The notes under the pieces are model-generated. The model was not told the DNA's origin. It worked only from the letters and a program-made list of their open reading frames with translations, and ran no database searches. A DNA stretch of 32,442 nucleotides, from NCBI GenBank assembly GCA_903930145.1, contig CAIYXP010000416.1:1-32442 (forward strand), in the 5' to 3' direction. The DNA is from an uncultured Methylococcaceae bacterium (lineage in GTDB: Bacteria > Pseudomonadota > Gammaproteobacteria > Methylococcales > Methylococcaceae). Below, piece after piece: positions 1 through 27,300 of this stretch (positions are counted from its first letter, which is position 1; each line of letters starts with the position of its first letter). A program made the translations under genes and the position numbers.

Positions 1-138
1 GAAGTTGACCGGTACTGCATGACCGCATTGAATGCCGTGCAGACACGCATTCTAGGGTTGATCGGGTTCACCCCGGCAATTTACCAAGGGATTGAAATGC
101 AATCCGGGAAACTGGCCGTTAAAATGGGCGAACCGTGA
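1..138 (+). CDS. C-terminal tail of an upstream gene (partial, unknown)
   Basis: Reading frame 1 is open from the first base to a TGA at 136-138, giving 45 residues that end in ...KLAVKMGEP. The fragment is too short to assign to a family. Its frame is clean, and it ends 49 bp before the start of the tubulin-like gene on the same strand, so it may be the previous gene of the same cluster. A possible promoter overlaps its end, so the two genes need not share one transcript. It could be a chance open frame, because 45 codons is not decisive. Confidence 0.4.
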   Translation, partial: EVDRYCMTALNAVQTRILGLIGFTPAIYQGIEMQSGKLAVKMGEP

Positions 139-147
139 GTATATAAT
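119..147 (+). promoter_or_regulatory. Possible sigma-70 promoter of the tubulin-like operon
   Basis: A perfect -10 hexamer TATAAT lies at 142-147, and TTAAAA at 119-124 is a four-of-six match to the -35 consensus with a 17-bp spacer. Transcription would start near 154, leaving a leader of about 34 nt before the ATG at 188. No operator-like repeat is visible next to it. Confidence 0.35.
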
Positions 148-187: not shown

Positions 188-3100
188 ATGAGCGAAGATT
201 ACAGAACAGGCCAAGGCAGCGTCATCCCCACCTTGATTATTGGCATTGGCGGGACGGGTTCGAGGATCGTGGACCGCTTGGCGGGGCGGGCGGCGCGTTT
301 GGCAAATTGGGAAAGCCAGTTGCGGCCCTTGACCCATTTCGTGTCCATCGACACCAATGAATTGGATCAGCATAAGCTTAAATTCATCCCCACCGGCAAT
401 CGGTTGAACATCGCCGCCTTCGACAAGGCGGTGGTGATCGAGAATTTCCGCCGATCCCAAGAGGATCAGGCATTGCAATGGCTGGACAAGGGCTACCGCC
501 CACGCCCCGGCTTCAGGCCGGGGGCGGGTCAAATCCGGGTGGAATCCCGCTTGGGGTTTTTCTATCATTCGCAGGAGATTCGCCAACGCTTGAAGGATTT
601 GGTCGATGCCAGCCTCAGGCCGGGTGTCACTTGGCGGCAATCTTCCCCGCCTAAGTTTAATGTGTACATTTTCTGCACCTTGGCCGGCGGCACGGGTTCG
701 GGCAGTTTCTTGTCGGTGGCTTATTTGGTGGATGCCGTGGTCAGGGAGCAGAACTGGCAACCGAGGATCATCGGCAACCTGTTGCTATCCACGATCATGC
801 TGGATAAAGTCGGCCCAGAACTGCATTCCGACATTCATGCCAACACCTATGCCGCATTGAAGGAATTGGAGCATCTGACCAAACTGGATTATAAACAAGT
901 CAAGGACGAAGGCCGCACTGATGAGCCTTTTGTTTACTGCCGAGACCCTTACAACCGGGAGATTCCCAAAGTCAAAGCCCGGCCCTTTTTCCTGAGTTTC
1001 ATCTTTGACCGCCCGTTCCATTTAGGTTTGCCCGACCCGGAAGCAGCCATTGCCGACGCGGCTTTCCTGCAAATCTTCACGCCGCTGATCGACAATTTGG
1101 CGGGCGAATTGGACAACTATGAGAAAAAACTGGAAGGCTTGACCCGTTTCCCCGGACACTTGCGCGATGTGGGCTTGGGCTATACCAAGAATTTCGGTGC
1201 ATTTGGCGCGGTGGCCTTGGTGCTACCCGGCGAGGATTTGCTGGAATATTGTGCCTTGCGCTTCGCCGCCCAAGCCTTGCGCCGCCAGATCACGTTTGGC
1301 ATTGATTCGGCCGACGGCGACGACGACCGCGCCAGAGCTTTGGCTCGGTTAGCGGTGGATTATTCCGACCCGAAGTTTTTGCGCATGGCGGACGACGGGC
1401 GCGAACGGGCGATCAACCAAGCTTTTGTGGCTTGTGTGCAAGAATTGGCGCGCCAAGATGCCAGTCAAGATTTGCCCAATGGGTTTTGGGGGCAGTTGGT
1501 GGAGTCGGTGGACGAGGGCCGGTTAGCGGGTTTGGATGCCCAAGGCTTGCCGATCAGAGGCGAATCGCTGGCCCGTCAGATTGAACGCAAGCTGGAAGAG
1601 GCCAGGGCTGAACTGCTGAATAAAATTTCGATCAAGGAACGGGCATTTGTTTTCCACAAAGAGGGGTTGAATCAATACCTCGAATTGGTCAGTCGTTTAA
1701 GCGACGACATCCGCGCCGCCGCCGCCCTCGTCAGCGAGGGGATGCAAAGCTTGGAGATGGCGGCAAAGGAAGGCGATATGATAGGTCAATTGAGGCTAGA
1801 CCCTTTAAACGAGCGGTATTTGGTGATTCGCCTGTTGGACCTGTGCGAACAACGCTGGCTACCGGAAGCGAAACAACAATTGGACAAGGCCGCCGCCCGC
1901 GACATCAATAATCCCAAGGTGCGTGAACGCTTGGAGCGCGAGCTATTGCAAACCCTGCAAGAAGCGGCTGCACGGGGTGGGCGTTTCTTCAATCGCGACC
2001 AAGCTTTCTTGGATGCCAGGGACGAGGCCCAAGAATATTACCGTAGCATCGCCTCCGGTAGCCGCAAGGCGTTTGATGCGCAGATTCGGCTGCGTCAGTT
2101 GCGCGGGTTATTGGAATATTTACAGCGCCGTTCCCGCCAATATGCGGGCTTGTCCACCCGCATGGACAGCCTCGTGCAAGAATTGGATCGTGAGGCCGAG
2201 CGTCTCAGACGAGGGGAGGTCGCCCTCAGCCCGCCGTTGGCTTTGCGTGTGGAAGTGTTTGAAACCATGGACGAACCACGCCGACGGATTTGGGATCAGG
2301 TGTATCGTGAACTATTCTTGGATCGGGGCCGCTATGTCAGCACGTTTGACCGCGATGCCTTGGCCGGGGCGATTGCCCGCGAATTGAAGCCAGTGGTTCG
2401 CTCCGACGGGACGGTGGTGGACAAATCCATCGACCAATTGGTTGCCGATTTGCGCCGGGCATTGTGCGATTTGGGCCGTGTGCGCATGGGTCCGACAATT
2501 TTTGGTCAAGGACTGGATGTCGGTTTGGATTTGGCACGAGGATTGGAACTGGAGGCGCGATTGTTGCTTAGTGCCAACAAGTCGCCGGGCCAAGAGGTGT
2601 CGGAAGATGAAATTGCCGCCTACCGGCAGCAGAAATTCCGCGCTTTGGCTCAATTGGCAGGGACATTGGCGCGGGTGGACACCGCACAATCCAAGGCACT
2701 GGACGACGGCGTAGAAGTCAACCGCACTCGCCAGTTGATCGTTGGCGATGCCGGTGACTCCCAAGCCGCAGAGCGCTTTACCCAAAGCTTGGAGGATGTA
2801 CTGGCAACCAGTGGTCGACAGGTAAAGAAAGATGTCTGGCACGACCCGCGCATAGCCATTGTCCACGATGTTGAACTCCCCATACCGCTATATTATTTCC
2901 CGGCAGTGGTGGGCGACATCGAGGAATCCTATCTGGCACAAGCCGCCGATGAGCGTCGCAGTTACAACCTGCATACGGATTTCAACTGGGAAAAATCGCT
3001 GCCCAACCTGAACCCTCGCCGATCCGAATTGGCGGTCGGCTGGTCGTTGGAACTGCTGGCGAAGGGGCTTGCCACCAGTATCATCGGTTTCCAGGATGGA

Positions 3101-3469
3101 ATTTTGGTTTGGCGCGTGGACGGCAAAGGCCAAATCGAGGAACTGGGCAGGAATTTTTCCAGTGCCTTATACCGACTCGGCGAGATGCACCGTATCGAGG
3201 AGTTGCAAAAGGAAATGGATCGGCGCATTGCGGCAGTTCAAGCCGAGCTTGGATCCCATGAAGAGCAAGCTGGCTGCGTTCAATTGGCGGAAAAATTCAC
3301 CGTATTGTTAAACCAGATGAACCTCCGCGAGTTTCGCGGCGAAATGAGCCGGGAAGACATCCTCGACCGTCCCATCCTGCGCGCACTCATCCGCGTACTG
3401 GGACAAAGGGGGGCGCAACCGGCCACCTCGTCCACAGGTGGCTTGTACAGTGGCTTGGAATTGGGTTAG
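188..3469 (+). CDS. Tubulin/FtsZ-like GTPase (Tubulin_2-like), 1093 aa
   Basis: This is a large cytosolic protein of the tubulin/FtsZ superfamily. The N-terminus has a glycine-rich nucleotide loop (GIGGTGS, residues 19-25) after a hydrophobic strand. The superfamily signature appears as AGGTGSG at 166-172, within the stretch FCTLAGGTGSGSFLSVAYLV. The GTPase part probably covers the first 400 residues or so. The rest is long and helical, rich in Arg, Glu and Leu, and far beyond the length of FtsZ. The start at 188 is chosen because AGGAAG precedes it at 177-182; an in-frame ATG at 92 has no such site and overlaps the preceding frame. Families of this kind were proposed, from gene context, to remodel membranes together with a separate GTPase, which fits the genes downstream. 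Polymerisation is inferred from the family, not seen. The next gene starts 3 bp after the stop. Confidence 0.88.
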   Translation: MSEDYRTGQGSVIPTLIIGIGGTGSRIVDRLAGRAARLANWESQLRPLTHFVSIDTNELDQHKLKFIPTGNRLNIAAFDKAVVIENFRRSQEDQALQWLDKGYRPRPGFRPGAGQIRVESRLGFFYHSQEIRQRLKDLVDASLRPGVTWRQSSPPKFNVYIFCTLAGGTGSGSFLSVAYLVDAVVREQNWQPRIIGNLLLSTIMLDKVGPELHSDIHANTYAALKELEHLTKLDYKQVKDEGRTDEPFVYCRDPYNREIPKVKARPFFLSFIFDRPFHLGLPDPEAAIADAAFLQIFTPLIDNLAGELDNYEKKLEGLTRFPGHLRDVGLGYTKNFGAFGAVALVLPGEDLLEYCALRFAAQALRRQITFGIDSADGDDDRARALARLAVDYSDPKFLRMADDGRERAINQAFVACVQELARQDASQDLPNGFWGQLVESVDEGRLAGLDAQGLPIRGESLARQIERKLEEARAELLNKISIKERAFVFHKEGLNQYLELVSRLSDDIRAAAALVSEGMQSLEMAAKEGDMIGQLRLDPLNERYLVIRLLDLCEQRWLPEAKQQLDKAAARDINNPKVRERLERELLQTLQEAAARGGRFFNRDQAFLDARDEAQEYYRSIASGSRKAFDAQIRLRQLRGLLEYLQRRSRQYAGLSTRMDSLVQELDREAERLRRGEVALSPPLALRVEVFETMDEPRRRIWDQVYRELFLDRGRYVSTFDRDALAGAIARELKPVVRSDGTVVDKSIDQLVADLRRALCDLGRVRMGPTIFGQGLDVGLDLARGLELEARLLLSANKSPGQEVSEDEIAAYRQQKFRALAQLAGTLARVDTAQSKALDDGVEVNRTRQLIVGDAGDSQAAERFTQSLEDVLATSGRQVKKDVWHDPRIAIVHDVELPIPLYYFPAVVGDIEESYLAQAADERRSYNLHTDFNWEKSLPNLNPRRSELAVGWSLELLAKGLATSIIGFQDGILVWRVDGKGQIEELGRNFSSALYRLGEMHRIEELQKEMDRRIAAVQAELGSHEEQAGCVQLAEKFTVLLNQMNLREFRGEMSREDILDRPILRALIRVLGQRGAQPATSSTGGLYSGLELG

Positions 3470-3472
3470 TCC

Positions 3473-5962
3473 ATGACCGATGCCAACACGCCTGTCCACC
3501 GCGCCACGCTCATCATTGGTTACGGTGATTTCGGACTGGATGTGCTGCGCCGGTTTCTGGACAGTACGGCTACCCGCGGGGTATTGACATGGGAACAATC
3601 CAGTGGCGAGGATCAAAATGCGCGGCGGTTGCGCGATTTGGCTCTGCTATGGGTTCATCCCCACCTGAACGATACCGCGCAAGCCGACCGGAGGCGTGTT
3701 CAAGAAGACAGCCATGCCGAGCTTATGCGGGATCTTTACCAGCAGATTGAACCGGTCGAAGTGGATGATGACCAAAGCATTTTGGCTGCGGTCATGGAGG
3801 AAAAAGCCAAGCTATTGCTGGATGCAGCCACCCGCGCCATGCGCCGGGAGAACCTGCCGCTGGGCTTGGATGTCATCGTCATCGCCCAACCTCGCGACCG
3901 TGCCGCCTTAGGGCGGCTAAATCCGCTGTTGCTAGCCGGCATCGAACGGCTCAACCGTTACGCCACCCAGTTGCAACGTCAGGTGAGCGGGACAGGCGCA
4001 TTGAACTTCATTCAAATTCTGGATTTTGAAAACTACTGGTACATGTCTGAGCAAAGCAAAGCGCTTCGCACCGCCGTGTACAATGCTATTAAGCGTTGGC
4101 AGCAACAACGCGGCGAGGGTAAACCGGGATTTGGCCGGATTTATCTGGTCGATGGTCAAGACCCCAAAGGGGGTGTGCGCAGTGAGCGCATGAGGATAGA
4201 CGAGATCAGCCTATTCCTCGAATTTCTGCTGTTCGAAGGCCAGCGTGGCGAGTTGCAAGCCTTTTACCAACCCAAAACCGCGCAAGAGCCACTACTGGCC
4301 ACCTTCGGCATCCGCCTGCTGGAACGCAGCGGTGGTTTGTTGCGCCGTCTTGCCGCTGCCCGCTTCGGCATGGATTGGTTGGATTACCTAGCCGATGGGG
4401 GTATTCGGCAGGGGGAGGCAGGCACGTTGGAATTGCGCAAACAATTGGGTGCTTACCGGGTCGAGGCGCTAAACCGATTATTGGAGGCAATGACTTTGCC
4501 GATGGACATCAACAAGCAATTGGAGTCCATCGCGCAGGAACTGGCCCGAATACCGATTGATGGAACCGACTGGTCGGGGCAAGTCGAGTCCCGTTATAGT
4601 CAGGCGGCACGACAGATGGAAAACGAATGGGCAGCACACGCCCATCAGCAAATCCGGCAAATCCTTGATCGCGAACCTTTGGTCGATTTGGCAAAAAACT
4701 TGCGCGATGGCATTGATGCCGCTTTGCATAGCCGTCAACCCGCAACCTTAGGCGCGGTCGTGCGTGAAGTGGATACGGTCTTGTCGGGTTTGACCAGCGA
4801 GCCAACCCCGGAAATTACCACCAATCAGAAATTACCGAGTAGCGGAGGCTGTGCTTTGCTGCGGCAGGACTACCAACGCTACCAGCATATCAAGCGTGGG
4901 CAGCTTAATCCTCACGACTTGAGCAAGTGGTGGCCTTTATTCAGTCTACTGCTCGGCCTTGGCCTTACCCCGATGTGGGTCGAGGCGCTCTCCTTCCCCC
5001 CGCCCGACCCGCTGACCGCCCCATTCCTATGGCAACGCTTATATCCTTTGCTGCAATGGCTGGCGGGGCATCCCACTATTTTGCTCATCCTATTCACTGC
5101 TATCCTATGGGGTTTACTGGCAAGCGTCGCCCAACAAGGCATCGTTGGGCGCTTGCAACGGGGGCGGCGGTTTTGGAATGACCCTGAACGTGGGCGATTA
5201 GTGGGTCGGCTGCATTCGCTGCTACGCCCGGACGGCGAATTAGGCAGGCATTTGGATGGTTTTTTGCAGCGCATGCGTCAAGACATGGCGTTGAGCATTC
5301 GTAGCGATGTCGGTCGGGAATTGAGCCGTGTGCTAAAACGCCTAAGTGAACGGCAGCGCGAGGTGGCTTGGCTGCGTGGGCAATTGCGCGAGTTCCTCGT
5401 CATGCATGGCATCAACCCGGACGTGCCCAACGAAAACTGGACACGGATGGATCATGAACGGACCGGCATCCGCCATACCTTGGAGCAATACAAGGACTAT
5501 GAGACTATTTTGGACTCCATCCCGCGTTTGGACGGGCCATTTTCGTCCATGCAGACACTGCGCAAACCTTTCAAGCAATGGGATGAGCGCTATTGTGATG
5601 CTTTTCTTTATCCCTTGCGCTTCATAGACGAATTGAGCGAACAATACAAAGACCCCTTTGAAGGCGAGCTTGCCAAACCCGACATCGGCATCGAACAAAA
5701 TGCCAGGGCGCGTGAATTGCGGGATTTGCTCGAACGCCATGGAAACTTTTCCACGGCATTTTCTTGGCGCGCCCAAGAGGGTGTGCCAGTGGATCAAGTC
5801 TATTGCCTATTGCCTCAAATTTGGTTGGGCTTGCAAGGGGTTCCGTCCACCCTGACCGGGTTGGGCATCACTGAGTCGCACCACTTTGTTGGCGTGGATG
5901 CCTCCCGCGCCTATCTATTGCGGGTAAAAATAGGAGTGAATACCCAATGCCTACTGGACTGA
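3473..5962 (+). CDS. Membrane protein with Rossmann-like N-terminus, operon partner (829 aa)
   Basis: No family is recognised with confidence. The N-terminus (TLIIGYGDFGLDVLRRFL, residues 12-29) closely parallels the nucleotide-loop start of the preceding tubulin-like protein, with the same strand-glycine-helix layout, but no GGTGSG signature follows. Residues 30-470 are mixed and then mostly helical. Two transmembrane segments lie at about 486-505 and 535-557, separated by a Pro-rich loop. The C-terminal 270 residues are again helical and charged. This suggests a protein anchored by a two-helix hairpin with two large cytosolic parts. It follows the tubulin-like gene by 3 bp and overlaps the next gene by 16 bp, so all three are probably translated together. 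It could be a degenerate paralogue of its neighbour that tethers it to the membrane; that is inference. Confidence 0.82.
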   Translation: MTDANTPVHRATLIIGYGDFGLDVLRRFLDSTATRGVLTWEQSSGEDQNARRLRDLALLWVHPHLNDTAQADRRRVQEDSHAELMRDLYQQIEPVEVDDDQSILAAVMEEKAKLLLDAATRAMRRENLPLGLDVIVIAQPRDRAALGRLNPLLLAGIERLNRYATQLQRQVSGTGALNFIQILDFENYWYMSEQSKALRTAVYNAIKRWQQQRGEGKPGFGRIYLVDGQDPKGGVRSERMRIDEISLFLEFLLFEGQRGELQAFYQPKTAQEPLLATFGIRLLERSGGLLRRLAAARFGMDWLDYLADGGIRQGEAGTLELRKQLGAYRVEALNRLLEAMTLPMDINKQLESIAQELARIPIDGTDWSGQVESRYSQAARQMENEWAAHAHQQIRQILDREPLVDLAKNLRDGIDAALHSRQPATLGAVVREVDTVLSGLTSEPTPEITTNQKLPSSGGCALLRQDYQRYQHIKRGQLNPHDLSKWWPLFSLLLGLGLTPMWVEALSFPPPDPLTAPFLWQRLYPLLQWLAGHPTILLILFTAILWGLLASVAQQGIVGRLQRGRRFWNDPERGRLVGRLHSLLRPDGELGRHLDGFLQRMRQDMALSIRSDVGRELSRVLKRLSERQREVAWLRGQLREFLVMHGINPDVPNENWTRMDHERTGIRHTLEQYKDYETILDSIPRLDGPFSSMQTLRKPFKQWDERYCDAFLYPLRFIDELSEQYKDPFEGELAKPDIGIEQNARARELRDLLERHGNFSTAFSWRAQEGVPVDQVYCLLPQIWLGLQGVPSTLTGLGITESHHFVGVDASRAYLLRVKIGVNTQCLLD

Positions 5963-8745
5963 TCTTAACTGTTTCATTGCTAGTGCTTGCTGCTGCTTTG
6001 GCGATATTCATGGATCGGCTGGCGGGTTTGCGCCGCCCGGATGGTGACCGGGGTGATTATTGGAGCCGCGTTGCCACTTATAGCCTGTTTCCATTGGCTT
6101 TCCTGCTGGCATTGTCGCAAGTGATGCCCTCCTTAGGCTGGCCGGTCGCGTGGACATTGCGCATGGACTTGGCTGGCGGCAACTTACAATATTGGTTGGC
6201 TTTGTCCCTGCCCTTCCTAGGCTGGGGTGGAGTGTTGCTGACGAGCTTGGCGGCAAAACCCTCAACGGGCGAGTCAATGCCTTGGCTGGTTGGCGGAGTG
6301 GGGTTTTTCAACTCTCGCCATTGGCTATTGTGGTGCGCTTTGCCATTAGCCTTGATTGTAGCAGTCAAAGCCGTTGATTTAGGCGGCGGCGAAAGCGCTT
6401 ACCCGGCGGCAGTCTGGAGCATGTTGGTCGTGACCCTGCTGACTTTGTCAGGCTTGGCATTCAGTCAGGGACGGGAAATGCCGGACATGGGACTCGTTAC
6501 AGAAACCGCTTCCTCCGAGAGTATCGCCAACCCAAAGCCTTGGCCTGACTGCATGGCGGATAGCGGCATTCAAGCCAAACCCTTGCCCAATTGGCCGTTT
6601 GCCAAAGAACCCAAGCGAACCGTGCGTGGCCTTGACGCGCAGGCATTCGCCCAGCGTTTGGATGGCATTGGGGCCAACCATGTCGCACCGCCTTTGATTG
6701 AAGGTGTCACCACGCTACTGCGACAAAACCGGCTCGATGATGACGATTATGGCGCTATCCAAGTGGTGTTCGCCCCCGATGACTGCGGTCAAGTGGAAGT
6801 CTTAAGCCTGGCGGCAATCTTGTTGCATCAGCAATTCCACACCGTCACCTTGATCGTAGTGCCTAGCGGGTCCGCGAATATGGCAGATCAACTAAGGGGC
6901 TGGTTGCCCGATACAGGGCAAGCAGTGGTTGCGCTGGACTATGGGGAAATCCCTGACAGCGCCTTGATTTGGGTGGCCGATGCCGAGTTTTTGTCTGACC
7001 GTCTGCTGGCGCAGATGAAAAACCCGAGGTTTGCCCGTCGCATTGGTTTGGTGGCATGGTGGCGGTTGGATGATTACAGCGGGGTCATGGCTGCCAATTT
7101 GTGGGCCATCACCCGCCGTTTGCATCGGATGCTGCGCTTTCAGGGTCGGCCTGATATCCGCACCTTGGCCTTATTGCGTTCGGCCTCCCCCGATACCCAA
7201 TTAGGCGATTTTGTACGCCGACTCCTGCCCCATTCCAACCCCGCCGAAACCCATGTCGGGTCGGGTTGGGCGAGATCGACCAGCCTTTATCTGCTAGAGG
7301 CAAAGAACGCCTCGCCAACTCAGGGGCAATACTTGCTGTTTCGGGCGGCGGCGGCCTCCGTGACGGGCGGTTGGTCAACCTGCCTGCAAGCCACAGAATT
7401 CATGACGACCAAAGAATTGAATCAGTTCCGCCAACTCCCGGTCAACGGCAACACGATGGGCGAACGGCTACGCCCTGACCCCGCCTCGGCAGATGTCCGC
7501 TTATTGCATTTGAACCCCGCCGACGTGCTGGCATTGCAGCCTACTTTGGCACAAAGTGGACGCGCACTGCCCTCTCTATCCGGTCATATTGGCCTAGTGC
7601 CACCATCCAACCCTTATGTGACGTACTTATTGGGACGGCTCGCCAAAGACCACGACCTACCCGGATCCAAGCGGTTGGTGTGTGCGGAATCCTGTCCGGC
7701 GATCATCAAGCGGCATTTGTTGTTGGCACTGAATGAAATGCCAGCCACTCGCCGTGGCTTGCTGGAAAGCGCCTTGTCGGATGAGCGTGTGGTGGCTGAA
7801 ACTTTGCGGGATTTGGCCGACGCAGGCCAATTGACCCGGCGCGAAGTGCGTTTTTTAGGCGAAAACGGTCGATTGATTCCTGAGTTTGAATACCAGAGTC
7901 TACGCATACCCGCCGGTCAATTCTATCCTTTGGACACGGTAGGCAGCCAACTGCTGGAAGTGCGCGAAGGCGGGACGGTGTGTCTGCGTTTGGATCCTGA
8001 AAGGCTATTGATCGCGGCGTATCCGGGACGGGTGTTCCTACGCGACGGGCAGCGTTATCGCATTCGTGACTGGCATTCGGTGGAAGAAGCCAAACGGCGA
8101 GGTTGGGTGGATTGCCAGCGGGAAGACCAATGCTATGCCAATTGGCGCATCCACTCCGCCGCTGTGTTCGGCATCCGCCCCTTGCGCGGGGAAGAAGAAG
8201 TCACCATCGGCAGGCAAGGCATCTTGACCCGGCTGGCGGTCGAACTGCACTACCAAGAAGAAGTGACCGGCTGGCTCGAATGGACCGAAGACCCCTGCCG
8301 CCTGCCCATCGAAACGCCGAAACCCAACTATTTTGTCAGCCCCCTCACCGACAAGTTCAAGACCCGCGCCGTGGTGTTGCGCCTGACGCGAAGGTTTGAC
8401 GACACCAGTGCGCTGACTTCATTGTGCCAAGCTTTGCGCCACGTGCTACCCGTTCACCTAGGCGTGGAAGAAGATGCGCTGGAAGTGGCCTGTTTGAATG
8501 GTGCCGATATCAACGGTGAGGAATCCTATGGTCTGGCCATTGTCGATCTTTACCCCGGCGGCATCGGCTTGACCGATGCCATCCGCGACGACAGTGCCTT
8601 GTTGCTGCGCCTGTTGGAATGGAGTCGTGATTGGTTGTGCGCTTGCCCGGATGATGCCTTGCAAACGCCTATGGCCTTGGCAACCAATCCCGATCAAGCA
8701 CCGCAACGCAAAGCCGCATTAAAACTACTGGACCAGATATTGTGA
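5947..8745 (+). CDS. Membrane-anchored MrfA/YprA-like pseudo-helicase with DUF1998-like C-terminus (932 aa)
   Basis: Five transmembrane segments lie at about 3-20, 45-63, 81-102, 125-143 and 155-172. The soluble part follows the layout of MrfA/YprA superfamily-2 helicases but without their catalytic residues. The Walker A site is replaced in VVFAPDDCGQVEVLSLA (from about 271). The DEAH box region reads LVAWWRLDDYSGVMAANLWA (from about 368), where helicases have a DExH followed by a Tyr-x-Gly-Val segment. The segment with PPSNPY, the region around YPGRVFLRDGQRYRI (about 692-706) and the end with DLYPGGIGLTDA (about 868-879) match the order of the MrfA C-terminus and DUF1998. Only two of the four usual cysteines remain (WLCAC near 897). 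AGGAG about ten bases upstream supports the start at 5947. DUF1998 proteins occur in DNA repair (MrfA) and in DISARM defence (DrmB). The homology is judged by eye. Confidence 0.78.
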   Translation: MPTGLILTVSLLVLAAALAIFMDRLAGLRRPDGDRGDYWSRVATYSLFPLAFLLALSQVMPSLGWPVAWTLRMDLAGGNLQYWLALSLPFLGWGGVLLTSLAAKPSTGESMPWLVGGVGFFNSRHWLLWCALPLALIVAVKAVDLGGGESAYPAAVWSMLVVTLLTLSGLAFSQGREMPDMGLVTETASSESIANPKPWPDCMADSGIQAKPLPNWPFAKEPKRTVRGLDAQAFAQRLDGIGANHVAPPLIEGVTTLLRQNRLDDDDYGAIQVVFAPDDCGQVEVLSLAAILLHQQFHTVTLIVVPSGSANMADQLRGWLPDTGQAVVALDYGEIPDSALIWVADAEFLSDRLLAQMKNPRFARRIGLVAWWRLDDYSGVMAANLWAITRRLHRMLRFQGRPDIRTLALLRSASPDTQLGDFVRRLLPHSNPAETHVGSGWARSTSLYLLEAKNASPTQGQYLLFRAAAASVTGGWSTCLQATEFMTTKELNQFRQLPVNGNTMGERLRPDPASADVRLLHLNPADVLALQPTLAQSGRALPSLSGHIGLVPPSNPYVTYLLGRLAKDHDLPGSKRLVCAESCPAIIKRHLLLALNEMPATRRGLLESALSDERVVAETLRDLADAGQLTRREVRFLGENGRLIPEFEYQSLRIPAGQFYPLDTVGSQLLEVREGGTVCLRLDPERLLIAAYPGRVFLRDGQRYRIRDWHSVEEAKRRGWVDCQREDQCYANWRIHSAAVFGIRPLRGEEEVTIGRQGILTRLAVELHYQEEVTGWLEWTEDPCRLPIETPKPNYFVSPLTDKFKTRAVVLRLTRRFDDTSALTSLCQALRHVLPVHLGVEEDALEVACLNGADINGEESYGLAIVDLYPGGIGLTDAIRDDSALLLRLLEWSRDWLCACPDDALQTPMALATNPDQAPQRKAALKLLDQIL

Positions 8746-8806
8746 AGTATTGCGCATGACACCCACCCTAGACATCAAGAGCCACTAACTTACCGGTACA
8801 GAAGCT

Positions 8807-11140
8807 ATGTTCGACAACAAAGCTAAGCAACAACTGGAAGGCTTGCTTTCCGACTTACGCAATTGGGGTGACTCGGTCGAAACACGGGCAGAGAGTTTCC
8901 ACCGTCTTCGCCGTTTATTGCAAGGCGATATAGAAACCGAGTTGAAACGGCTGTTTCCCCGCAAAAGCCAAGCCGAGAACTATATCCAACGCCACCGCCC
9001 CCTGTCCAAGCTTGCCTTGGATTTAGGGGACTTGCTAAATCAATCGCAAGCATTGGATGCTGAGCTTGACGAGTTGCTTATTCTCTTCACCCATGAGCGT
9101 GAATTATCCGCCATCGGCGAGGGCACTTGCCGGCAATGGCGGGAGGAGTTGCATAAACTGCCGGCAGCTTGCGAGCGGGAGACCGATGTGACTCGTGCCA
9201 AACAAGAGGCGGAGCAAATCGGCCAAGCCGTTAGACTCCACATTGAAGCCTTGCGGGCCTTCCAAGAAGCCGATGCCATCATCAGGCGACTCGGCAGCGA
9301 TGCTGACACCGCCGCCTTGGAAACGGAACTGCAAAGATCGCGACTGGCGATGGCAGCCGGCCGAGTCTCCTTGGAAGGGGCAAGGCAAATCAAAAAGTTA
9401 TGCGCCCCTTTGGAAGCACTGCTCAACCGCCCCGAACCGCAAGAATTGCAAAGCCTGTCTGGCTTGTTGACGGAAATTCGTGAATGGAACCGTAGTTTGG
9501 AGGCACCATCCGACCAAGAACGCAGCTTGGAGCAACGCCGCCGCCAACTGGGGACGGACTGGCGGCGGCGTGATGCCGATGCTTGGCAGGTTTTGCTGCA
9601 AGAGGCCGAAAACTTGCGCAAGCAACTCATCACCCAAGGCAGGGCATTGCGTGACAGCAAATTAGCCGAACTGGAGGAATTGCTGGACGACTTGGTCTAT
9701 GCCTTGGACACTCACCAAAAGGGGACGCAGGACATCCAAGACATCCGCCGTCGCTTGGCTACGCTCAAGCAAGGCGGCTGGGACAGCGTCCACCGCCACA
9801 AAGACTGGCTGGAAATATTCAAGGAGGCCGAAGCCGATTTCAGCGCCATCACCAACGATCAAGAACCCGCATTGGAAAAGCGCCTGCAAGAACATTGCAC
9901 CCATTTGAAAACCCAACTGCGCCGACTGAATGACATGCCTTTGGCAGATGAAATCAGACGGAACGCCGAATCGCTGGAACAAAAGACCCAGCCTCTTTGC
10001 CAACCGCACGAAGCTCACAATCTACTCATCGCGCTACGCCAAAGCCATAGAATAGACCGTCAAGTGGCCGAACTGCAACAGCAAGCCGCGAAAGACCGGG
10101 AAGAGCTAGCCTATAGCCAACAAAAACTACGCCTAGACAATGAGCATTTGCTACAGGAAGCCGCCAGGATTGGCTGCGCCGTCGAAGACCTGACACCCAG
10201 CATAGAGGCTTTGATTGAGGGGGTTTTAAACCGGACGCTGGATAAAGCCCGCCAAGAGGCAAAGTCGCTGGCAACCAAGCTCGACGATCATCGGGAAACC
10301 CTCATTCGGCATTGTCAAACTGAGCAAGACGCACGGTTGACGGAAATCAATCTCCATGTCGCTGCATTGTGCGCCGCCGGTTTTCCCGTCGAAGCACCCA
10401 ATCTACCCATCAAACCTATCGTCCTTGAGGAATTCGCGGGCAGATTGGACGCACTGGCGCAGGAATGCCTGAGGCTGCAACAGCTCCTCGCCAAAGCCAT
10501 GACTGAATTGGAACAGCGCAGGGACCGCCAACGGGTAGATTTGTCGGATTTAACGCATCAAAGGCTTCCTCCCGGCGAACAAGAAGAGGCCGAAGCCCTG
10601 CTCGCGCAGATGGAGACTGATGCGGCCATGGCAGCAAGCCCAATGCATGGCCCAATAGAACGCCTACGCGAGTTGGCGGACAGGGTCGAAATAGGCGCTG
10701 CCTTCCTTGAACGCCTGTCCGCCGAACAACAAGGCTGGCAACAGCAGCTTGTCACACTGAAAGAAAGGCTGCAAACCTTCAAGCAAGAACGCCTTCATGT
10801 CCATTGTTCAGACGAATGGCTCAATCATGTCGCCGATTTGACTTACGGCATTCCCGACCCGGTTGCGCAAGAGCATTTGCCGCAATTGCGAGAAGCCAAA
10901 ACGCTATTCGACCGCCTTGAGCAGCAAGCCCTTAGACTGACGGCGCAAATAGTCGATGTTCAATTGGCTGAATTGGAGCAACACAAACACAAGCATCCCA
11001 AGCCCCACGAAGTCGAAGCCTTGCTACTGGCCTTGCGTAAACTAGGCGACGACATGCCTGTCCCCGTCAATCTGCGCCTAAGGCTACACAATGCCGCTGC
11101 CGCATTGGGCAAGGAAAGGAGTCACCATGGCCGCGCCTGA
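8807..11140 (+). CDS. Long coiled-coil protein of the tubulin-like operon (777 aa)
   Basis: The protein is almost wholly alpha-helical. Heptad-like Leu/Glu/Lys/Gln/Arg runs extend from about residue 10 to 760, with no transmembrane segment, signal peptide, P-loop or metal motif. Composition and length resemble the stalks of SMC, dynamin-like or myosin-like proteins, but no head domain is present. It starts 61 bp after the pseudo-helicase gene with only a weak ribosome site. Its last 14 bases overlap the start of the GTPase gene, so the two are coupled. A role as a linker or scaffold between the membrane proteins and the GTPases is inferred only from structure and position. A basic-residue tail (KERSHHGRA) ends the protein. 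Confidence 0.82.
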   Translation: MFDNKAKQQLEGLLSDLRNWGDSVETRAESFHRLRRLLQGDIETELKRLFPRKSQAENYIQRHRPLSKLALDLGDLLNQSQALDAELDELLILFTHERELSAIGEGTCRQWREELHKLPAACERETDVTRAKQEAEQIGQAVRLHIEALRAFQEADAIIRRLGSDADTAALETELQRSRLAMAAGRVSLEGARQIKKLCAPLEALLNRPEPQELQSLSGLLTEIREWNRSLEAPSDQERSLEQRRRQLGTDWRRRDADAWQVLLQEAENLRKQLITQGRALRDSKLAELEELLDDLVYALDTHQKGTQDIQDIRRRLATLKQGGWDSVHRHKDWLEIFKEAEADFSAITNDQEPALEKRLQEHCTHLKTQLRRLNDMPLADEIRRNAESLEQKTQPLCQPHEAHNLLIALRQSHRIDRQVAELQQQAAKDREELAYSQQKLRLDNEHLLQEAARIGCAVEDLTPSIEALIEGVLNRTLDKARQEAKSLATKLDDHRETLIRHCQTEQDARLTEINLHVAALCAAGFPVEAPNLPIKPIVLEEFAGRLDALAQECLRLQQLLAKAMTELEQRRDRQRVDLSDLTHQRLPPGEQEEAEALLAQMETDAAMAASPMHGPIERLRELADRVEIGAAFLERLSAEQQGWQQQLVTLKERLQTFKQERLHVHCSDEWLNHVADLTYGIPDPVAQEHLPQLREAKTLFDRLEQQALRLTAQIVDVQLAELEQHKHKHPKPHEVEALLLALRKLGDDMPVPVNLRLRLHNAAAALGKERSHHGRA

Positions 11141-11933
11141 GTCCGAAGATTCTGTCATACCCTTGGCCATTTGGGGTCCCTCAGCCTCGGGAAAAACCGT
11201 ATTAATGGCGCAACTGCATTTGGAAACCCATGACGGGCAAGGCGATTGGGATGTCTACCCCACCCATGCCGATTCTTTGAAATTCATTGATCAAATGCAG
11301 GAATACCACCTCAACAACGAATTCCCGCCCGCTACTTCGGTTGGTTTGACGGAACAAATCGCCTATGAGTTTTGCAACCGTGAAACCGGGGCCAAGGCTC
11401 TGCTGACCTTGGAGGACCGGGGGGGAAAAGATTTCGAACACGAAACCCTGCATAACGATGCCAGAAACCGCATCAATACCGCCTTGGGACTCGTGTTGAT
11501 GATAGACCCCACCCGCGACAAGCGCCATATTCAATCGCAACTGTCGCATCTTTTAAGGCTGATGCACACGGACAGACGGGCCAGCCAACCACAAGCCGCC
11601 AATCCGAAAGACCAAAGACCCATCGCCGTGTGTATCTCCAAGGCCGACTGCTTGATCGACTCCCCGGCTGACTACCGCCGTGCTTGCCAAGCACCGGATG
11701 CCTTTGTCCGGGAAAACGATCATTGGGATATAACGCCTTTATTAGAAAGGTTCTGTGCCAATTACCATTTCTTCCCGGTCTCATCCGTGGGTGTGGGACT
11801 CCACCACGGCGTGATTGAAGCCAATACCTTTTACGATGAAAGCTTCAATCTGCGCATCAAAACCAAAGGCAAGCCGTTTAACCTGATGATACCCTTTGCA
11901 TGGTTGATTGGACAGTTGGCGACAAACTCATGA
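11127..11933 (+). CDS. Small G-domain (Ras-like P-loop) protein, 268 aa
   Basis: The full set of GTPase motifs can be read. G1/Walker A is GPSASGKT (17-24), G3 is DRGG (97-100), a G4 variant SKAD (171-174) stands where NKxD is usual, and a G5-like SSVG lies at 219-222. The hydrophobic strands before each motif are present (IPLAIW, ALLTLE, PIAVCI). There is no transmembrane segment; residues 250-265 are hydrophobic but form part of the fold's last helix. The start at 11127 is supported by GGAAAGGAG just upstream, while an earlier in-frame ATG lies inside the coiled-coil gene. It overlaps that gene by 14 bp and the next gene by ATGA. Likely a molecular switch for the cluster, similar in context to the distinct GTPase linked to FtsZ-like genes and to GTPases of NTP-dependent conflict systems. 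GTP specificity is inferred. Confidence 0.83.
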   Translation: MAAPESEDSVIPLAIWGPSASGKTVLMAQLHLETHDGQGDWDVYPTHADSLKFIDQMQEYHLNNEFPPATSVGLTEQIAYEFCNRETGAKALLTLEDRGGKDFEHETLHNDARNRINTALGLVLMIDPTRDKRHIQSQLSHLLRLMHTDRRASQPQAANPKDQRPIAVCISKADCLIDSPADYRRACQAPDAFVRENDHWDITPLLERFCANYHFFPVSSVGVGLHHGVIEANTFYDESFNLRIKTKGKPFNLMIPFAWLIGQLATNS

Positions 11934-13423
11934 AAAAAGACCCTACTTGGCCCGCTTTAAAGCCTAGGCAAGAACCCATGCCATCCATGGTTTTTCATCG
12001 TGCAATATGGGGCAAGGTGCATGGTGCCAATTCTGATTTTCGTTGGATCGCCCGCAGCGAGGCTTGCAAAGCCGATGATGGGCTGGCGCGCGATCTATTG
12101 CTAGGCAGCGAAGACACCCCGCCAGCCGGAAAGCTCTATTTTTGGCGATCATTCAGCCATGGCGGGAAACTGACCGCGTATGTCGCCGGTACGGCTTACC
12201 TTAGCCGGGCGGTGGATGCGACGGGGCGGAAGGACTTTCTGGAAAAGCAATTGCTGGAATTGGATGCGGAATACCCGGCGGCAGCGGCGGCTTTGCTCGG
12301 TCTGCCCGAAACCGCCGCATGGACGGACGACATCTGGTGGGTTCAATCGCAGCCACTGGATTGGTCGCGCCACGAAACTGTGCTAACCATCAACGGACAG
12401 AGGAGCTTGGACCCAAGCCAATTGGCACAAGCCATACAAAACGGCTTGGACGCATTGAAGGCCATATCCACTGAGGAGTTGGAGGAATTCTATGCCCGCC
12501 TATTAGCCGGTGAACGGCCCGCCTGCCTGCGCCAGCGCTCCCCCCTGTCCGCTGAGGCTTTGGCCGCTTTACTGCTGCCTTTGGACCGCGCCCTTGCCGA
12601 CACCTTGTCAATGGCCGGCTGGATTCCCTCCCAGCGTTACGAACTGGAAGAACTGGGCAAACGCTGGGATATTATCGTCTTGCCCGAATCGGCAAGGCTG
12701 CCGGCCTTATCCATCCCGGCACTGGAAAAAATGGAACAAGCCAAACTATTTGTACAGGCTTTGCAAGAGCAAAACCCTAGGCTTTTAGCAGGGGAAACAT
12801 CCCCTGAATCTGCCAATGAGTCTTTCAGCGACTTTGAACCCATTGAAGCACAGCCAGTACAGGATGAAGCTTCCAACAACGAGCCTGTCCTCGGACAGGA
12901 AACTGCCCACTTGCCGGATAATTATCACTTGCGAGATCCAAATTGGCCCATACTGCCCGATGCCAGGCTTGCCATTACCCCGCCCACCAAGGATGCCAGC
13001 GAAAGGATGCGTTTATTCCACCATTTTGCCTCTGCGGTGGATCAACGTGTGCTTAAAGCCAGCGTATTGAAAGATTTGCAACCCCCTCTCACAGAATTGC
13101 CTGAGGCCGAAGCCTTGCAATTATGCTCTTGGGTAACGCAGGTGGAAAAAACGCAAAAACCCCATTATGCCGATCAACAGCAATGGCATTTGAAATTGGA
13201 CTTGCTCAAAGCCATCGCCTGGATTTTAGCCCCATCGATATGTGTTGAAAAAGGGTTTTCTGTACCCATCGACGACCGTCTTTTTTATTATGCTCCGGCC
13301 TTGATTACCCGTTCAAAAGAATTCGAAGAACGTTGGAATTCAGCCAAGGAAAAATCGCCTGATGAGCTTGCAAAAACCATCCGAGACTGTCTATCGAATA
13401 CTGAAACCGGATATAAAATTTAG
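11930..13423 (+). CDS. GTPase-coupled partner protein, possibly GAP1-like (497 aa)
   Basis: This soluble protein starts with the ATGA that ends the GTPase gene, so its synthesis depends on that gene. An earlier in-frame ATG at 11900 would lie inside the GTPase. Residues 20-120 contain a distinctive pattern: an FHRAIWGKVHGANSDFRWIA block followed by LLLGSED and an aromatic YFWRSF stretch. Its shape (Ala-x-x-Gly-x-x-His-Gly, then Arg-x-Ile-Ala-x-Ser) recalls the N-terminal domain of GTPase-associated protein 1 (GAP1) in NTP-dependent conflict systems. A linker rich in Glu, Ser and Pro (about 285-325) joins a second, mostly helical domain (about 330-490). No catalytic motif is recognised. The GAP1 link is a by-eye resemblance and is uncertain; a close functional tie to the GTPase is likely. 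Confidence 0.75.
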   Translation: MKKDPTWPALKPRQEPMPSMVFHRAIWGKVHGANSDFRWIARSEACKADDGLARDLLLGSEDTPPAGKLYFWRSFSHGGKLTAYVAGTAYLSRAVDATGRKDFLEKQLLELDAEYPAAAAALLGLPETAAWTDDIWWVQSQPLDWSRHETVLTINGQRSLDPSQLAQAIQNGLDALKAISTEELEEFYARLLAGERPACLRQRSPLSAEALAALLLPLDRALADTLSMAGWIPSQRYELEELGKRWDIIVLPESARLPALSIPALEKMEQAKLFVQALQEQNPRLLAGETSPESANESFSDFEPIEAQPVQDEASNNEPVLGQETAHLPDNYHLRDPNWPILPDARLAITPPTKDASERMRLFHHFASAVDQRVLKASVLKDLQPPLTELPEAEALQLCSWVTQVEKTQKPHYADQQQWHLKLDLLKAIAWILAPSICVEKGFSVPIDDRLFYYAPALITRSKEFEERWNSAKEKSPDELAKTIRDCLSNTETGYKI

Positions 13424-16962: not shown

Positions 16963-17874
16963 TTAGCGGTTCTCAAACCGGTTGTAATCGAATAACCCTG
17001 CTTCGACAGGAAAGGTCTTGCGATAGCCCTCAATCAGAGAATCACTATGCGACCAAAACCGATTGTCCGTCCGGCGGATGGCAAACTGCGAACTGAGGGC
17101 AGAATAATCAGCCTCGGATTGCAGACTGCCGACCATCCTGACGAATCTCGGCAAATGGGATGATTCCACTTGGTAGAAGGCATTGGGGTAAGCCCCCAAA
17201 AAGCCGGGAACCACCGTCAAGGTGTCCTCGTTAGGCAAGCGGCGGGCATCCTCCTTGAACATCTGCGAGATGTTGCTGTGGGCGCTATTGCGTAAAATGC
17301 TAAAGTGATGCTTCTGTCCTTTTCCGTCGAGCACGGTCAGCAACGTCACTTCAGGCAAAAACGAGACTGCCCTGCCTTTCAAACCGGACAATTGCAGCAG
17401 AGATTCCCAAGTTTCATTATCCAACTTGCCTTGGGTAAAGTCGTAACGCTTGTCTAACACAGGCTTGAGATGTGCCTTCCAAAGCCCCAGCAATTCAGGC
17501 CAAGGGTCGTCAGTTTGATAGTTCACGCCGCTGTCCTGAAGGAAAAGTGCCCTGCTCCCGTTCAAATACTGTATTACGTTCTCGGAGGCATTGCGATACC
17601 AAATGTCGCGCACCGTGTCGCGGGAGTCAATAGGCAAGAGGGCGAGGACGGCAAACTCGCCCTCCATGCGCAGGAAGTCCATGTAGAGCCTAGATTGGAG
17701 TTGATGGGCAGTGTTGCCATAGACATCGAAACCCGCCACCAATAAATAATGCATGCGCTCCAGCAAGGTATAGCCCATGATGAGCGCCGTTTGCGGCCTG
17801 TCCCCGACCAAACCCTTGGCGACGCTGGCGCTGTCGAAGGTGATTAAATTATTAAATTTCTCCACCCTTGACAA
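16963..17874 (-). pseudogene. cti: C-terminal fragment of fatty acid cis/trans isomerase
   Basis: About 300 residues match the end of the periplasmic cis/trans fatty acid isomerase (CTI). The blocks ITFDSASVAKGLVG, LLERMHYLLVAGFDVYGNTA and RLYMDFLRMEGE are typical. CTI converts cis to trans unsaturated fatty acids in membrane lipids under solvent or heat stress. This fragment begins only at a TTG (17874), with an in-frame TAA two codons upstream, and has no signal peptide or heme site. The N-terminal fragment of the same gene lies at 19213-19959 on the same strand, and about 220 central residues are missing from both. The two are therefore halves of one gene broken by the AT-rich insert between them. 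It is unlikely to be functional. Confidence 0.82.
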
Positions 17875-17944
17875 ACGAAATTAGAGGGGGTAGTGTGCTG
17901 CTGACTAAGTTTTTTTGAAGCTAGGCCATTATAGGAGAACAGAG

Positions 17945-18442
17945 ATGAGCGAAACTGATGGTGAATTGAAGGCAATACCAGCTTTAACTAAACCTACGGG
18001 TTTCTTTGTTAATGTCATTTTCGTAATTTTCTTTTGGTGTATGGGGGGGGTCGTTGTTATATATGGCATTCGTCTATACCATGATTTGCCGATTCATCCA
18101 ACTTTTATACCGATAATTGGGGCAGTTTTCGCTGCTGTGCTATCCTTTACTTTAGTGATGACCCTACAAATTTATTCAGGAACAGTCTCCATTAAGGCTG
18201 GAAGTGGTTTCGCATTGGAGGGGGCTTCTGGCCCAATCGTTTTATGGTGTCTATGTTTTTTATCAGTGTGCTACGGTTTATATCTGTTAGGGGTAATTGA
18301 GGTAGCTAAAACAGCACCAAGTTCTAATTATATTTCATGTTCCGTCCATGATGCTTGGAAGAAGAAATGTATATATCAAGTAATAGTCGAAAAAAACCCC
18401 AAAGCGGAAAGTGCGGTTATCTCATCACCCAATAATCCTTAA
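17945..18442 (+). CDS. Small three-segment membrane protein (165 aa)
   Basis: Three transmembrane segments lie at about 19-43, 52-76 and 93-115, with a hydrophilic C-terminal tail of about 45 residues. A conserved-looking motif, ALEGASGPIVLWCLCFL (about 86-102), leads into the third segment. I recall such a GASGPI-LW-FL pattern from small hypothetical membrane proteins, but no function is known to me. AGGAGAA just before the ATG at 17945 fixes the start; an in-frame ATG at 17915 lacks such a site. It is the first gene of the AT-rich cassette, 43 bp before the second membrane protein gene, so the two may be co-transcribed. Confidence 0.7.
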   Translation: MSETDGELKAIPALTKPTGFFVNVIFVIFFWCMGGVVVIYGIRLYHDLPIHPTFIPIIGAVFAAVLSFTLVMTLQIYSGTVSIKAGSGFALEGASGPIVLWCLCFLSVCYGLYLLGVIEVAKTAPSSNYISCSVHDAWKKKCIYQVIVEKNPKAESAVISSPNNP

Positions 18443-18485
18443 CCTAAATCTTATGTGTTCTTTAATATATTGTAAGGATTAGTTT

Positions 18486-19175
18486 ATGAATAACTTACCT
18501 ACAAACAAACCTGGGTCACAGGCGTTCATGGTATTTTCCATGCTTTTGCTTGGTACGTTTTCTGCGGTTCTGGTTATTATTTTTGATTTATTTCAGAGTG
18601 ATAAAACAACAATATCGAGCGTAATTATAAAGCATGTAAAAGAATTTGACGGTGTTCCATACATTACAATTATTTCTATTACTGGTTTGTCACTTTTGGC
18701 TGTTGGATTTTTTATTTATCTTTCGTCTTTTATAATTTTATCTTTGCCTGCTATGTTATTGCGGAATAGAGTGAAAAATTGGAAAAATGGGCTTTTTGCA
18801 TATATTACAACGAACGAATTAAAGGAAATAACAACAGAGGTTTTTTCGGAAAATACTGACCGTAAATTCAGGGATGCTTTTCTTTATATTTATTTGACAA
18901 GTGAGGTCTCCGAAAATAGTTCAAATATACGATTCGCTTTCACTCAACTAATGTTTGGTCGCTCTCTCTGTTGTATATTCTTAATATTTTCAGTTTACGC
19001 TTGTTTGGTATCCGCTTCTTATTTAGGCATTTGGATACTTATAATTCCAATTCTTTTCTATGCTCTTTGCATAGCATGGTATATATATGGACTGGACTAT
19101 TACGAAGATATTATGACTTGCGGTTATTTGGTAAACAAGTCAAAGCTATGCAAAAAAACAGTTGAATCTATTTAA
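18486..19175 (+). CDS. Four-segment membrane protein, unknown (229 aa)
   Basis: Two N-terminal transmembrane segments (about 15-36 and 60-90) and two C-terminal ones (about 157-176 and 179-202) enclose a soluble region of about 65 residues. Codon use is strongly AT-biased compared with the flanking genes, which marks it as acquired DNA. AAGGATT precedes the ATG. No family is recognised. As the partner of the three-segment protein upstream, it may form a two-component membrane unit, for example an immunity or abortive-infection type pair, but this rests only on gene order and composition. Confidence 0.68.
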   Translation: MNNLPTNKPGSQAFMVFSMLLLGTFSAVLVIIFDLFQSDKTTISSVIIKHVKEFDGVPYITIISITGLSLLAVGFFIYLSSFIILSLPAMLLRNRVKNWKNGLFAYITTNELKEITTEVFSENTDRKFRDAFLYIYLTSEVSENSSNIRFAFTQLMFGRSLCCIFLIFSVYACLVSASYLGIWILIIPILFYALCIAWYIYGLDYYEDIMTCGYLVNKSKLCKKTVESI

Positions 19176-19212
19176 GCATTAGATTTAAAAAGCCAATAAA
19201 TAATTTTAGTAA

Positions 19213-19959
19213 TCAAGCAGATTTGATGTCATCGCCATTTAAAAATTCTTCCCATTGGGCGATGCGTTTCTGTTGGGGTTCGGAGAGCGGTTTGGGCGGC
19301 GCGGCGGGTGCGCCCAGTTCCAACCACTGCTTGATAGTCTGTTCCTCCTTCTTCGACAGTGCGGGTAGCCCGTAAGGCATCCCCCACTCAGGATGTTGGT
19401 TGGCGAAATCGTCAAATTCTTCAATCGCCGGACAATATTGATCCCGATCCAGTGAAAAATCGAAGCGGTCATTCGGGAGTGGACTGCCAGCGATAGATGG
19501 GTGTTTGGATTTCAACGTCAGCATTCTCGCCATGACACTGGCATCTAGGTTGGCTTCCGCAGTTGACTCGCGCTCGTTGAGGACCGGATGGAACCCCCTT
19601 GCCCGCCATGCGGCATTGCTTTGCGCATCCACAAACAAACGGCTGGGGTTGGCGGCAAACAACCGAACCGCGTCATAGACTTTGGTTTTGTTCGCACCAC
19701 GGGTGATGCCTTCCACGCTACCCATTTGCAACTGGCAAGGCGCATCGAAGCACCCGTGGCAAACCGCACAGCGATTGTCGGTGATGGGCTTCACATCGCG
19801 CCAATATTCAACCGGGGCGTTAGCGATGGCTTGTCGGTCTGGCGTTTGGTCGAAACGGGAAGGGTCGGCTCTACCGTGGCGCTGGTCCAGTTGGTAGCCT
19901 TTGATGAAGGCGCAACCAGAAAGTAGGAACAATACTGAAAAAAGCAGAAACTGGCGCAT
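19213..19959 (-). pseudogene. cti: N-terminal fragment of fatty acid cis/trans isomerase
   Basis: The fragment (248 residues) starts with a lipoprotein-like export signal (FLLSGC, cysteine 16) and carries the CTI cytochrome-c heme site CAVCHGC at 64-70, followed by FDAPCQL. The following region (YDAVRLFAANPSRLFVDAQS, then CPAIEEFDDFANQHPEWGMP) also fits CTI. It stops after ...FLNGDDIKSA, about where the full enzyme of some 780 residues should continue for 500 more. The remainder is partly found at 16963-17874. GGGAAG upstream supports the start at 19959. A palindromic operator-like site lies about 110 bp upstream. The fragment could still be exported as a small heme protein, but it lacks most of the enzyme. 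Confidence 0.83.
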
Positions 19960-27183: not shown

Positions 27184-27300
27184 TAGAAACATCGGCATCG
27201 GTTGGCCGGTGGTGGTGCGGTCGCGGGAAAGGCTGTGGGATTCGGACTGGCAAGTGGATTGGGAGGGCAATTGGAATGCCTTGGCGAACCGCTTCCATGA

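Follow-up and report, generated by a model that had tools for sequence, protein, structure and literature searches.

The question raised by this locus is which kind of system is formed when tubulin-like, GTPase and helicase-like proteins are encoded side by side in a bacterium, and whether such a system has been described before. The window, that is the whole stretch of 32,442 nucleotides analysed here, comes from an uncultured Methylococcaceae bacterium and carries six forward-strand genes, A to F, between positions 188 and 13,423. The six open reading frames and their junctions (in order, a 3-bp gap, a 16-bp overlap, a 61-bp gap, a 14-bp overlap and an ATGA overlap) are exactly those given in a first-pass annotation of this DNA when its listed starts are adopted. 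As the genes touch or overlap, they are likely to be expressed as a single transcription unit, as had been proposed. The order A-B-C-D-E-F recurs in other genomes at about 30–80% identity and is kept in Methylumidiphilus, Lamprocystis, other Chromatiaceae and two Acidobacteriota. The co-occurrence postulated for the six genes is thus real, and chance neighbourhood is rejected as an explanation.

The first-pass annotation had seen no vWA partner and for this reason took the operon as a candidate undescribed system, outside the FtsZ-like-1 (FtsZl1) family. The left margin of the window tells a different story. Positions 1–139 (forward strand) are the right end of an insertion sequence, made up of the final ∼45 codons of a frame resembling a transposase and of a terminal inverted repeat, next to which a target duplication, TATATA, lies at about 140–145. 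The head of this element forms the end of another contig of the same genome (C57), with three vWA genes directly upstream, and an identical element end with a different flank is found on contig C387. A sister genome (G001, contig C251) has retained the empty site, and there the uninterrupted order is vWA1-vWA2-vWA3-A-B-C-D-E-F. In the window genome the insertion sequence interrupts the locus between vWA3 and A, and the vWA genes are missing from the window as a contig-end artefact, the contigs being broken at the element. A to F are therefore the downstream part of a longer, nine-gene operon that does not start at position 188. Each of the three upstream, predicted periplasmic products, V1 to V3, starts with a signal-peptide-like segment, retains the MIDAS motif (DxSxS) in intact form and carries one C-terminal membrane helix; the copies of the window genome score below the curated cut-off of the Pfam VWA profile. 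vWA genes are also located upstream in most other loci that contain A and B.

The character of the individual proteins had been better anticipated: a tubulin-like GTP-binding protein is recovered in A, two membrane proteins in B and C, a coiled-coil-type protein in D, a small G protein in E and a pseudo-helicase with DUF1998 in C. Protein A (188–3469, 1093 aa) matches the Pfam family Tubulin_2 (PF13809) with an E-value of 9e-45. Its T1-like loop, GIGGTGS (residues 19–25), and its T4-like loop, AGGTGSG (residues 166–172), are intact, the loop glycines are invariant across 14 relatives, and a long C-terminal part follows. To judge by these motifs, A is a GTP-binding-type tubulin. It is not the cell-division protein, as a normal FtsZ is encoded elsewhere in the same genome (contig C433). 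A phage origin is likewise rejected, since phage records contain no match to A and no PHROG gives a sound one; plasmid records harbour only distant Tubulin_2 proteins with about 27% identity. A occurs by itself in three Chromatiaceae loci (L041–L043), and may therefore also work without B to F. The T6-H7 elements are not recognisable in FtsZl1 proteins (PMC2875224), which counts against assured filament formation by A.

Protein E (11,127–11,933) displays the P-loop GPSASGKT and an SKAD motif, and exceeds the cut-off of 27 bits for two Pfam DO-GTPase families, PF19975 (30.4 bits, E 3e-7) and PF19993 (28.0 bits, E 2e-6). Two DO-GTPases of Rhizobium are matched by hhalign with probabilities of 93 and 89. 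In five relatives E is fused N-terminally to an F-like domain. The part concerned corresponds to the N-terminal domain of ∼300 aa in F (11,930–13,423, ∼500 aa), and F is therefore likely to be a direct partner of the GTPase. No meaningful Pfam match, GAP1 included, was obtained for F in 10 of 10 members, and its identification as GAP1 is rejected: hhalign comparison with 12 GAP1 N-domains, taken from plasmids and two genomes, yielded a probability of at most 1. F resembles GAP1 in placement and fusion only. Protein D (8807–11,140, 777 aa) is charged and rich in leucine; the coiled-coil label reflects its residue content and no formal coiled-coil prediction. D is fast-evolving, yet present in every complete operon, and iterated profiles place it at the same position in L037–L040, L045, L047 and L048. 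In the Pfam search of A to F, B, D and F remained without a significant match.

With an FtsZl1/Tubulin_2 protein in A, a DO-GTPase in E and vWA genes upstream, the locus belongs, on its gene content, to the vWA-FtsZl1-GTPase system, which was predicted in 2010 by Makarova and Koonin to act in membrane remodelling (PMC2875224) and was later put among conflict systems by Kaur et al. Tubulin_2/FtsZl1, vWA genes with signal peptide and MIDAS, a divergent GTPase and several membrane proteins are shared with the original description. The conserved nine genes include no OmpA-family or peptidoglycan-binding partner, a component that is frequent in the system without being universal, and B and C are additions relative to the main text of that paper, by which novelty is judged here; its supplementary families A1-A2/B1-B9 might hold B or C unnamed. 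One relative has a gene for a weakly FadL/TodX-like outer-membrane protein upstream. The DO-GTPase-GAP1 systems of Kaur et al. 2020 (PMC7159879) also combine a DO-GTPase, a tubulin, a vWA protein and a partner placed after the GTPase or fused to it. They differ in having two GTPases where this operon has one, and in the GAP1 that F does not match. The tubulin theme is there associated with Bacillota and Actinomycetota and with FNIII proteins, and the consulted parts of the account mention no dead helicase; in turn, neither a GASH nor an FNIII-repeat component was detected by Pfam in A to F or V1 to V3.

Protein B (3473–5962, 829 aa) is connected to the tubulins by several lines of evidence. 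Its profile matches A with an E-value of 9e-6, and the Myxococcota version of B does so at 4e-8, whereas controls gave nothing. The AlphaFold2 model of B finds CetZ (Z 18.2) and BtubA (Z 17.5) as best structural matches, and 50 of the 50 matches listed are tubulins. Against this assignment stand the pLDDT of 78 of the model and a plain Foldseek E-value of only 4e-3, which is suggestive. Profile searches against solved structures gave no useful match for A, B, E or F. One or two hydrophobic segments in a helical insert, at about residues 485–545, are predicted membrane helices. The T1 loop reads GYGDFG and does not follow the GG.G pattern, and the GGTG loop is absent. As neither T1 nor T4 is intact for GTP binding, B is termed degenerate. 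The model thus points to a second, membrane-inserted tubulin with a degenerate GTP site, which appears to be new. The pairing of such a protein with a GTP-binding tubulin would be unusual and suggests a parallel with eukaryotic nucleators or capping subunits.

Protein C (5947–8745, 932 aa) begins with five membrane helices (residues 4–172) and ends in an MZB/DUF1998 region that lies barely above the Pfam cut-off (E 4e-5). Profile comparison with the PDB retrieves the helicase MrfA (6znp, E 1.2e-8), Foldseek links the model of C to MrfA with an E-value of 4.3e-26, and in the VIA comparison 562 residues are superposed with a Z of 24.1 over residues 193–932, the whole soluble part. Motif I is DCGQ and motif II is WWRL, so that neither the Walker A lysine nor the DExH signature is left. 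C accordingly appears, from its model, to be a full-length MrfA/YprA-type SF2 helicase fold with inactive ATPase motifs, seemingly new as a subunit of such an operon. The GQ of motif I is found in every gammaproteobacterial and acidobacterial member. With the Myxococcota-type loci included, motif I forms a series of GSGKT, GSGRT and DCGQ, and GSGKT is borne by a relative in L071; the helicase seems to have lost its engine stepwise while being kept in a cytoskeletal operon. The four MZB zinc cysteines, gone in the window protein, are retained in five of nine relatives, as in MrfA/YprA helicases (PMC12458937). Five membrane helices, the missing Walker A lysine and DExH, the lack of a nuclease partner and a tubulin/vWA operon set C apart from that group, DrmA/B, DruE and ARMADA included, and no association of these helicases with FtsZ, vWA or GTPase was found in the same paper.

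The combination extends beyond the genomes in which all six genes are kept. In 15 Myxococcota-type loci, C is encoded downstream of A, and proteins in the B position match B with a probability of 99.7 over 736 columns. Loci of Bacillota and Bacteroidota are possible further members. They encode proteins of corresponding size in the same succession (vWA, tubulin, ∼750 aa, 1200–1700 aa); their B position is unmatched and their C position is weakly related (Myxococcota C against Bacillota C, P 88.5, E 3e-6).

On balance, the product of the nine-gene operon may well be a cytoskeletal complex that sits on the inner membrane and is regulated by GTP. The vWA ectodomains would sense a ligand in the periplasm or cell envelope and pass the signal across the membrane, triggering GTP-dependent assembly of A on a membrane template of B and C. 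E, together with F, would be the GTP switch that gates this assembly. B would offer a fixed tubulin-like face from which polymerisation of A is nucleated or capped, C, its motor lost, might be a passive anchored scaffold or a binder of nucleic acid or nucleotide, and D could bundle or crosslink filaments. As a result, the inner membrane would be remodelled or scaffolded locally. A more tentative view sees in the operon a conserved cytoskeleton for signalling across the envelope. A would assemble on the membrane-embedded pseudo-tubulin, and a helicase, converted progressively from GSGKT through GSGRT to DCGQ, would have become a membrane-bound subunit that is structural or senses nucleic acid; the detection of foreign nucleic acid at the membrane might in this way be coupled to the formation of filaments.

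A role in defence, suggested in the first-pass annotation as possible action against invading DNA or damage, might also be considered. The binding of foreign nucleic acid or of a phage product by C would set off the DO-GTPase switch, and tubulin assembling at the membrane would halt infection by phages or plasmids, in some genomes with the contribution of an inserted nuclease or NAD-depleting gene. Kaur et al. proposed that systems in which a DO-GTPase is accompanied by tubulins and vWA proteins act in conflict (PMC7159879), and DISARM, Dpd, Druantia and ARMADA are built around relatives of MrfA/YprA (PMC12458937). The operon is patchily distributed, being present in three of seven genomes of the genus, and some genomes carry an extra effector-like gene between vWA3 and A. 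In G006 this slot holds SIR2_2-TPR, and in Lamprocystis it encodes a nuclease domain of the GmrSD type. These defence-type genes are suggestive only. In most relatives the slot is empty or occupied by other genes. No PADLOC (2023) model fits the whole operon, and the single-protein matches are weak and not solid, DruE being hit by the DUF1998 region of C at an E-value of 0.0016 and Csx3 by protein E at 0.012, so that identity with a known defence system is rejected. The remaining genes of the window are mostly of a housekeeping type, and long joint inheritance of nine genes together with slow evolution of A would be unusual for a defence effector. This reading is tentative.

Methanotrophs and Chromatiaceae are generally known for internal membranes, and the hosts include a methanotroph as well as Chromatiaceae. 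An organiser of intracytoplasmic membranes or cell shape in methanotrophs and purple sulfur bacteria would suit the membrane components B, C and V1 to V3, and FtsZl1 was from the outset proposed to remodel membranes (PMC2875224). Such an organiser is improbable, however: methanotrophy should be common to the whole genus, of which only the three genomes have the operon, and Acidobacteriota and Myxococcota, which also possess it, are not known for such membranes. TubZ systems use tubulins to move plasmids, and C retains the entire fold that binds DNA in MrfA, but a machine that uses the two tubulins to move or tether DNA, C serving as the anchored DNA adaptor, is very improbable, as the genes reside on chromosomal-type contigs, an unsystematic look identified no centromere-like repeat or TubZRC-type adaptor, and vWA sensors have no place in it.

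The preferred reading, a membrane-bound cytoskeletal complex, concerns a family for which no experimental study was found in the literature searched. The compact nine-gene version defined here has a relative in the culture-collection strain Lamprocystis purpurea DSM 4197. Two core subunits without prior family assignment, B and C, are given structural identities, and the role of FtsZl1 becomes directly testable. The window genome itself contains another Tubulin_2 gene with vWA proteins nearby, in a Ter (tellurite/stress) cluster on contig C298. No relatives of B, C or E were detected in that cluster, where three TerD proteins are encoded together with a PP2C phosphatase and a vWA protein of the TerY type.

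The six plus-strand genes A to F (A, 188–3469; B, 3473–5962; C, 5947–8745; D, 8807–11140; E, 11127–11933; F, 11930–13423) have exactly the open reading frames and spacing described in the first-pass annotation. Pfam searches identify A as Tubulin_2 (E 9e-45), an MZB/DUF1998 domain in C (E 4e-5) and E as a DO-GTPase (30.4 and 28.0 bits against a cut-off of 27), and assign no family to B, D or F. The operon reaches beyond the window, which is a complete contig (C416) of a 6.0-Mb assembly in 542 contigs. The relative G006 carries vWA-domain genes upstream of A, and a search with one of these genes located a homologue in the window's own genome, 170 bases from the end of contig C57 and oriented towards that end. 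In the sister genome G001, contigs C251 and C82 share 141 identical bases within A and together give the order vWA1-vWA2-vWA3-A-B-C-D-E-F. The vWA partner, initially thought to be absent, is thus present. A tandem duplicate of vWA3, with internal repeats in one copy, is found on contig C27 of G006 (L014/L011).

The interruption is due to a single insertion sequence bounded by inverted terminal repeats; its two ends are formed by the final ∼100 bases of C57 and by positions 1–139 of the window. The uninterrupted site is present in G001, and TATATA (6 bases) on both sides of the element is the target duplication. The right end also occurs on contig C387 with a different flank; the element is therefore repeated in the genome, which accounts for the assembly break at the window start. 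By eye, it looks like a transposase gene. It occupies the position that separates A from the preceding vWA gene; this slot is empty in G001, L039 and L047 and accommodates a SIR2_2-TPR gene in G006 (L011:3646–5496), a GmrSD-type nuclease-domain gene in L040 (7740–9734) and a transglutaminase-like gene in L049 (6083–7390). These different contents, in three cases and hence few, hint at cargo.

A scan of 84,980 species genomes yielded 80 loci, the closest of which provided profiles for checking gene order. Besides the window, the complete A-B-C-D-E-F array, whose conserved co-occurrence the annotation had proposed to check, occurs in G001, G006 (on the contig also listed as L038), L037 (an uncultured proteobacterium), L039 (a Thermoanaerobaculia MAG), L040 (Lamprocystis purpurea DSM 4197), L047 (an Acidobacteria MAG) and two Chromatiaceae MAGs (L045, L048). 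Ca. Thiosymbion (L049) shows A-B-C up to the end of the fetched DNA, and Thiodictyon (L044, L046) A-B only. vWA genes precede A in L038–L040, L044, L045 and L047–L050, and none does so in L037 and L046. Three Chromatiaceae loci, including Lamprocystis (L041–L043), harbour full-length A without B–F or vWA genes; there A lies near a conserved 662-aa FAD-binding-type gene, and L. purpurea has such a lone A besides its full operon. C is carried by only three of the seven genomes of the window's genus, to which Candidatus Methylumidiphilus alinenensis and a MAG of an uncultured Methylococcaceae belong; full-length C was found in 0 of 194 other relatives and in none of a 369-genome class sample.

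In a tree of A, a fully supported split divides a gammaproteobacterial–acidobacterial clade from Myxococcota; long branches were flagged. Downstream of A, Myxococcota-type loci are syntenic with the B–C order: the profile of the first gene matches B (P 99.7, 736 columns), that of the second matches C (P 99.8, 637 columns), and iterated searches individually confirmed C in 15 such loci. Bacillota and Prevotella loci display the same order of vWA, tubulin, a ∼750-aa gene and a 1200–1700-aa gene; profile comparison detected no homology of the former to B, and that of the latter to C is weak.

The N-terminal part of B aligns to A in profile comparison (E 9e-6; Myxococcota B, E 4e-8), and the controls C, D and vWA3 gave no match. 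An AlphaFold2 model of B (pLDDT 77.8) superposes on CetZ with Z 18.2 over 277 residues (rmsd 4.0) and on BtubA with Z 17.5; the 50 structural matches listed are all tubulins. Because the superposed residues come from the beginning of the protein as well as from its last part, the helical stretch that spans the membrane appears to be inserted into a tubulin. The GTP loops are degenerate, with GYGDFG at T1 and the GGTG loop absent, so that B is a membrane-inserted, probably GTP-blind tubulin.

The designation of C as a pseudo-helicase with DUF1998 is borne out. Searching the PDB with a profile built from nine members identified MrfA (6znp; E 1.2e-8), and the model of C (pLDDT 76.4) matches MrfA (Foldseek E 4.3e-26; VIA-align Z 24.1) over residues 193–932, namely all that follows five N-terminal membrane helices. 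Motif I reads DCGQ in the window, with GQ in all gammaproteobacterial and acidobacterial members, and motif II is WWxLH. Myxococcota members mostly have GSGRT in motif I, with DDxD, and two (L067:17949–21956 and L071:17692–20538) still have GAGKS and GSGKT. These graded motifs suggest that the helicase ATPase was lost stepwise inside this operon family; some versions may still possess an active helicase. The MZB zinc cysteines are retained in five of nine close members and absent in the window's C.

E matches two canonical Rhizobium DO-GTPases (P 93 and 89). F lies directly downstream, and an F-like domain is also fused N-terminally to E in five relatives. GAP1 is reported with the same placement relative to the GTPase (PMC7159879); F resembles it in placement and fusion but not in sequence, and its identification as GAP1 was rejected, as no sequence test made supports it.

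The kind of system is ordinary, belonging to one already predicted: Makarova and Koonin proposed a vWA-FtsZl1-GTPase membrane-remodelling system (PMC2875224), and Kaur et al. counted tubulin-vWA-DO-GTPase clusters among conflict systems (PMC7159879). The novelty appears to lie in two of the conserved subunits and the roles they probably play. The text of a 2025 YprA helicase survey (PMC12458937) is silent on tubulin or vWA partners, FtsZ appearing only in a reference title, and neither the dead helicase nor the second tubulin was found described in the main texts of the open-access papers searched. Pieced together from its parts, the mechanism would involve periplasmic sensing by the vWA proteins, a membrane template formed by B and C, assembly of A powered by GTP and a switch constituted by E–F.

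The window's genome has a second Tubulin_2 gene on contig C298, neighboured by three TerD genes, three vWA genes, of which one is TerY-type, and a gene for a PP2C phosphatase; this is a Ter-type cluster (2612–12419 of L012, which is G000:C298:19000–38900) possessing its own tubulin. Elsewhere in the window, a TIR-domain gene (TIR_2, E 2e-30) and a 191-aa gene of unknown family overlap by 13 bases (26569–27554); the two may form a small defence or signalling pair of their own. In cti (16963–19959), which encodes fatty-acid cis/trans isomerase, an AT-rich insert of ∼1.4 kb splits the gene and carries two small membrane-protein ORFs (17915–18442 and 18486–19175), both without a Pfam match; cti is unbroken in G001 (L010:1576–3936).
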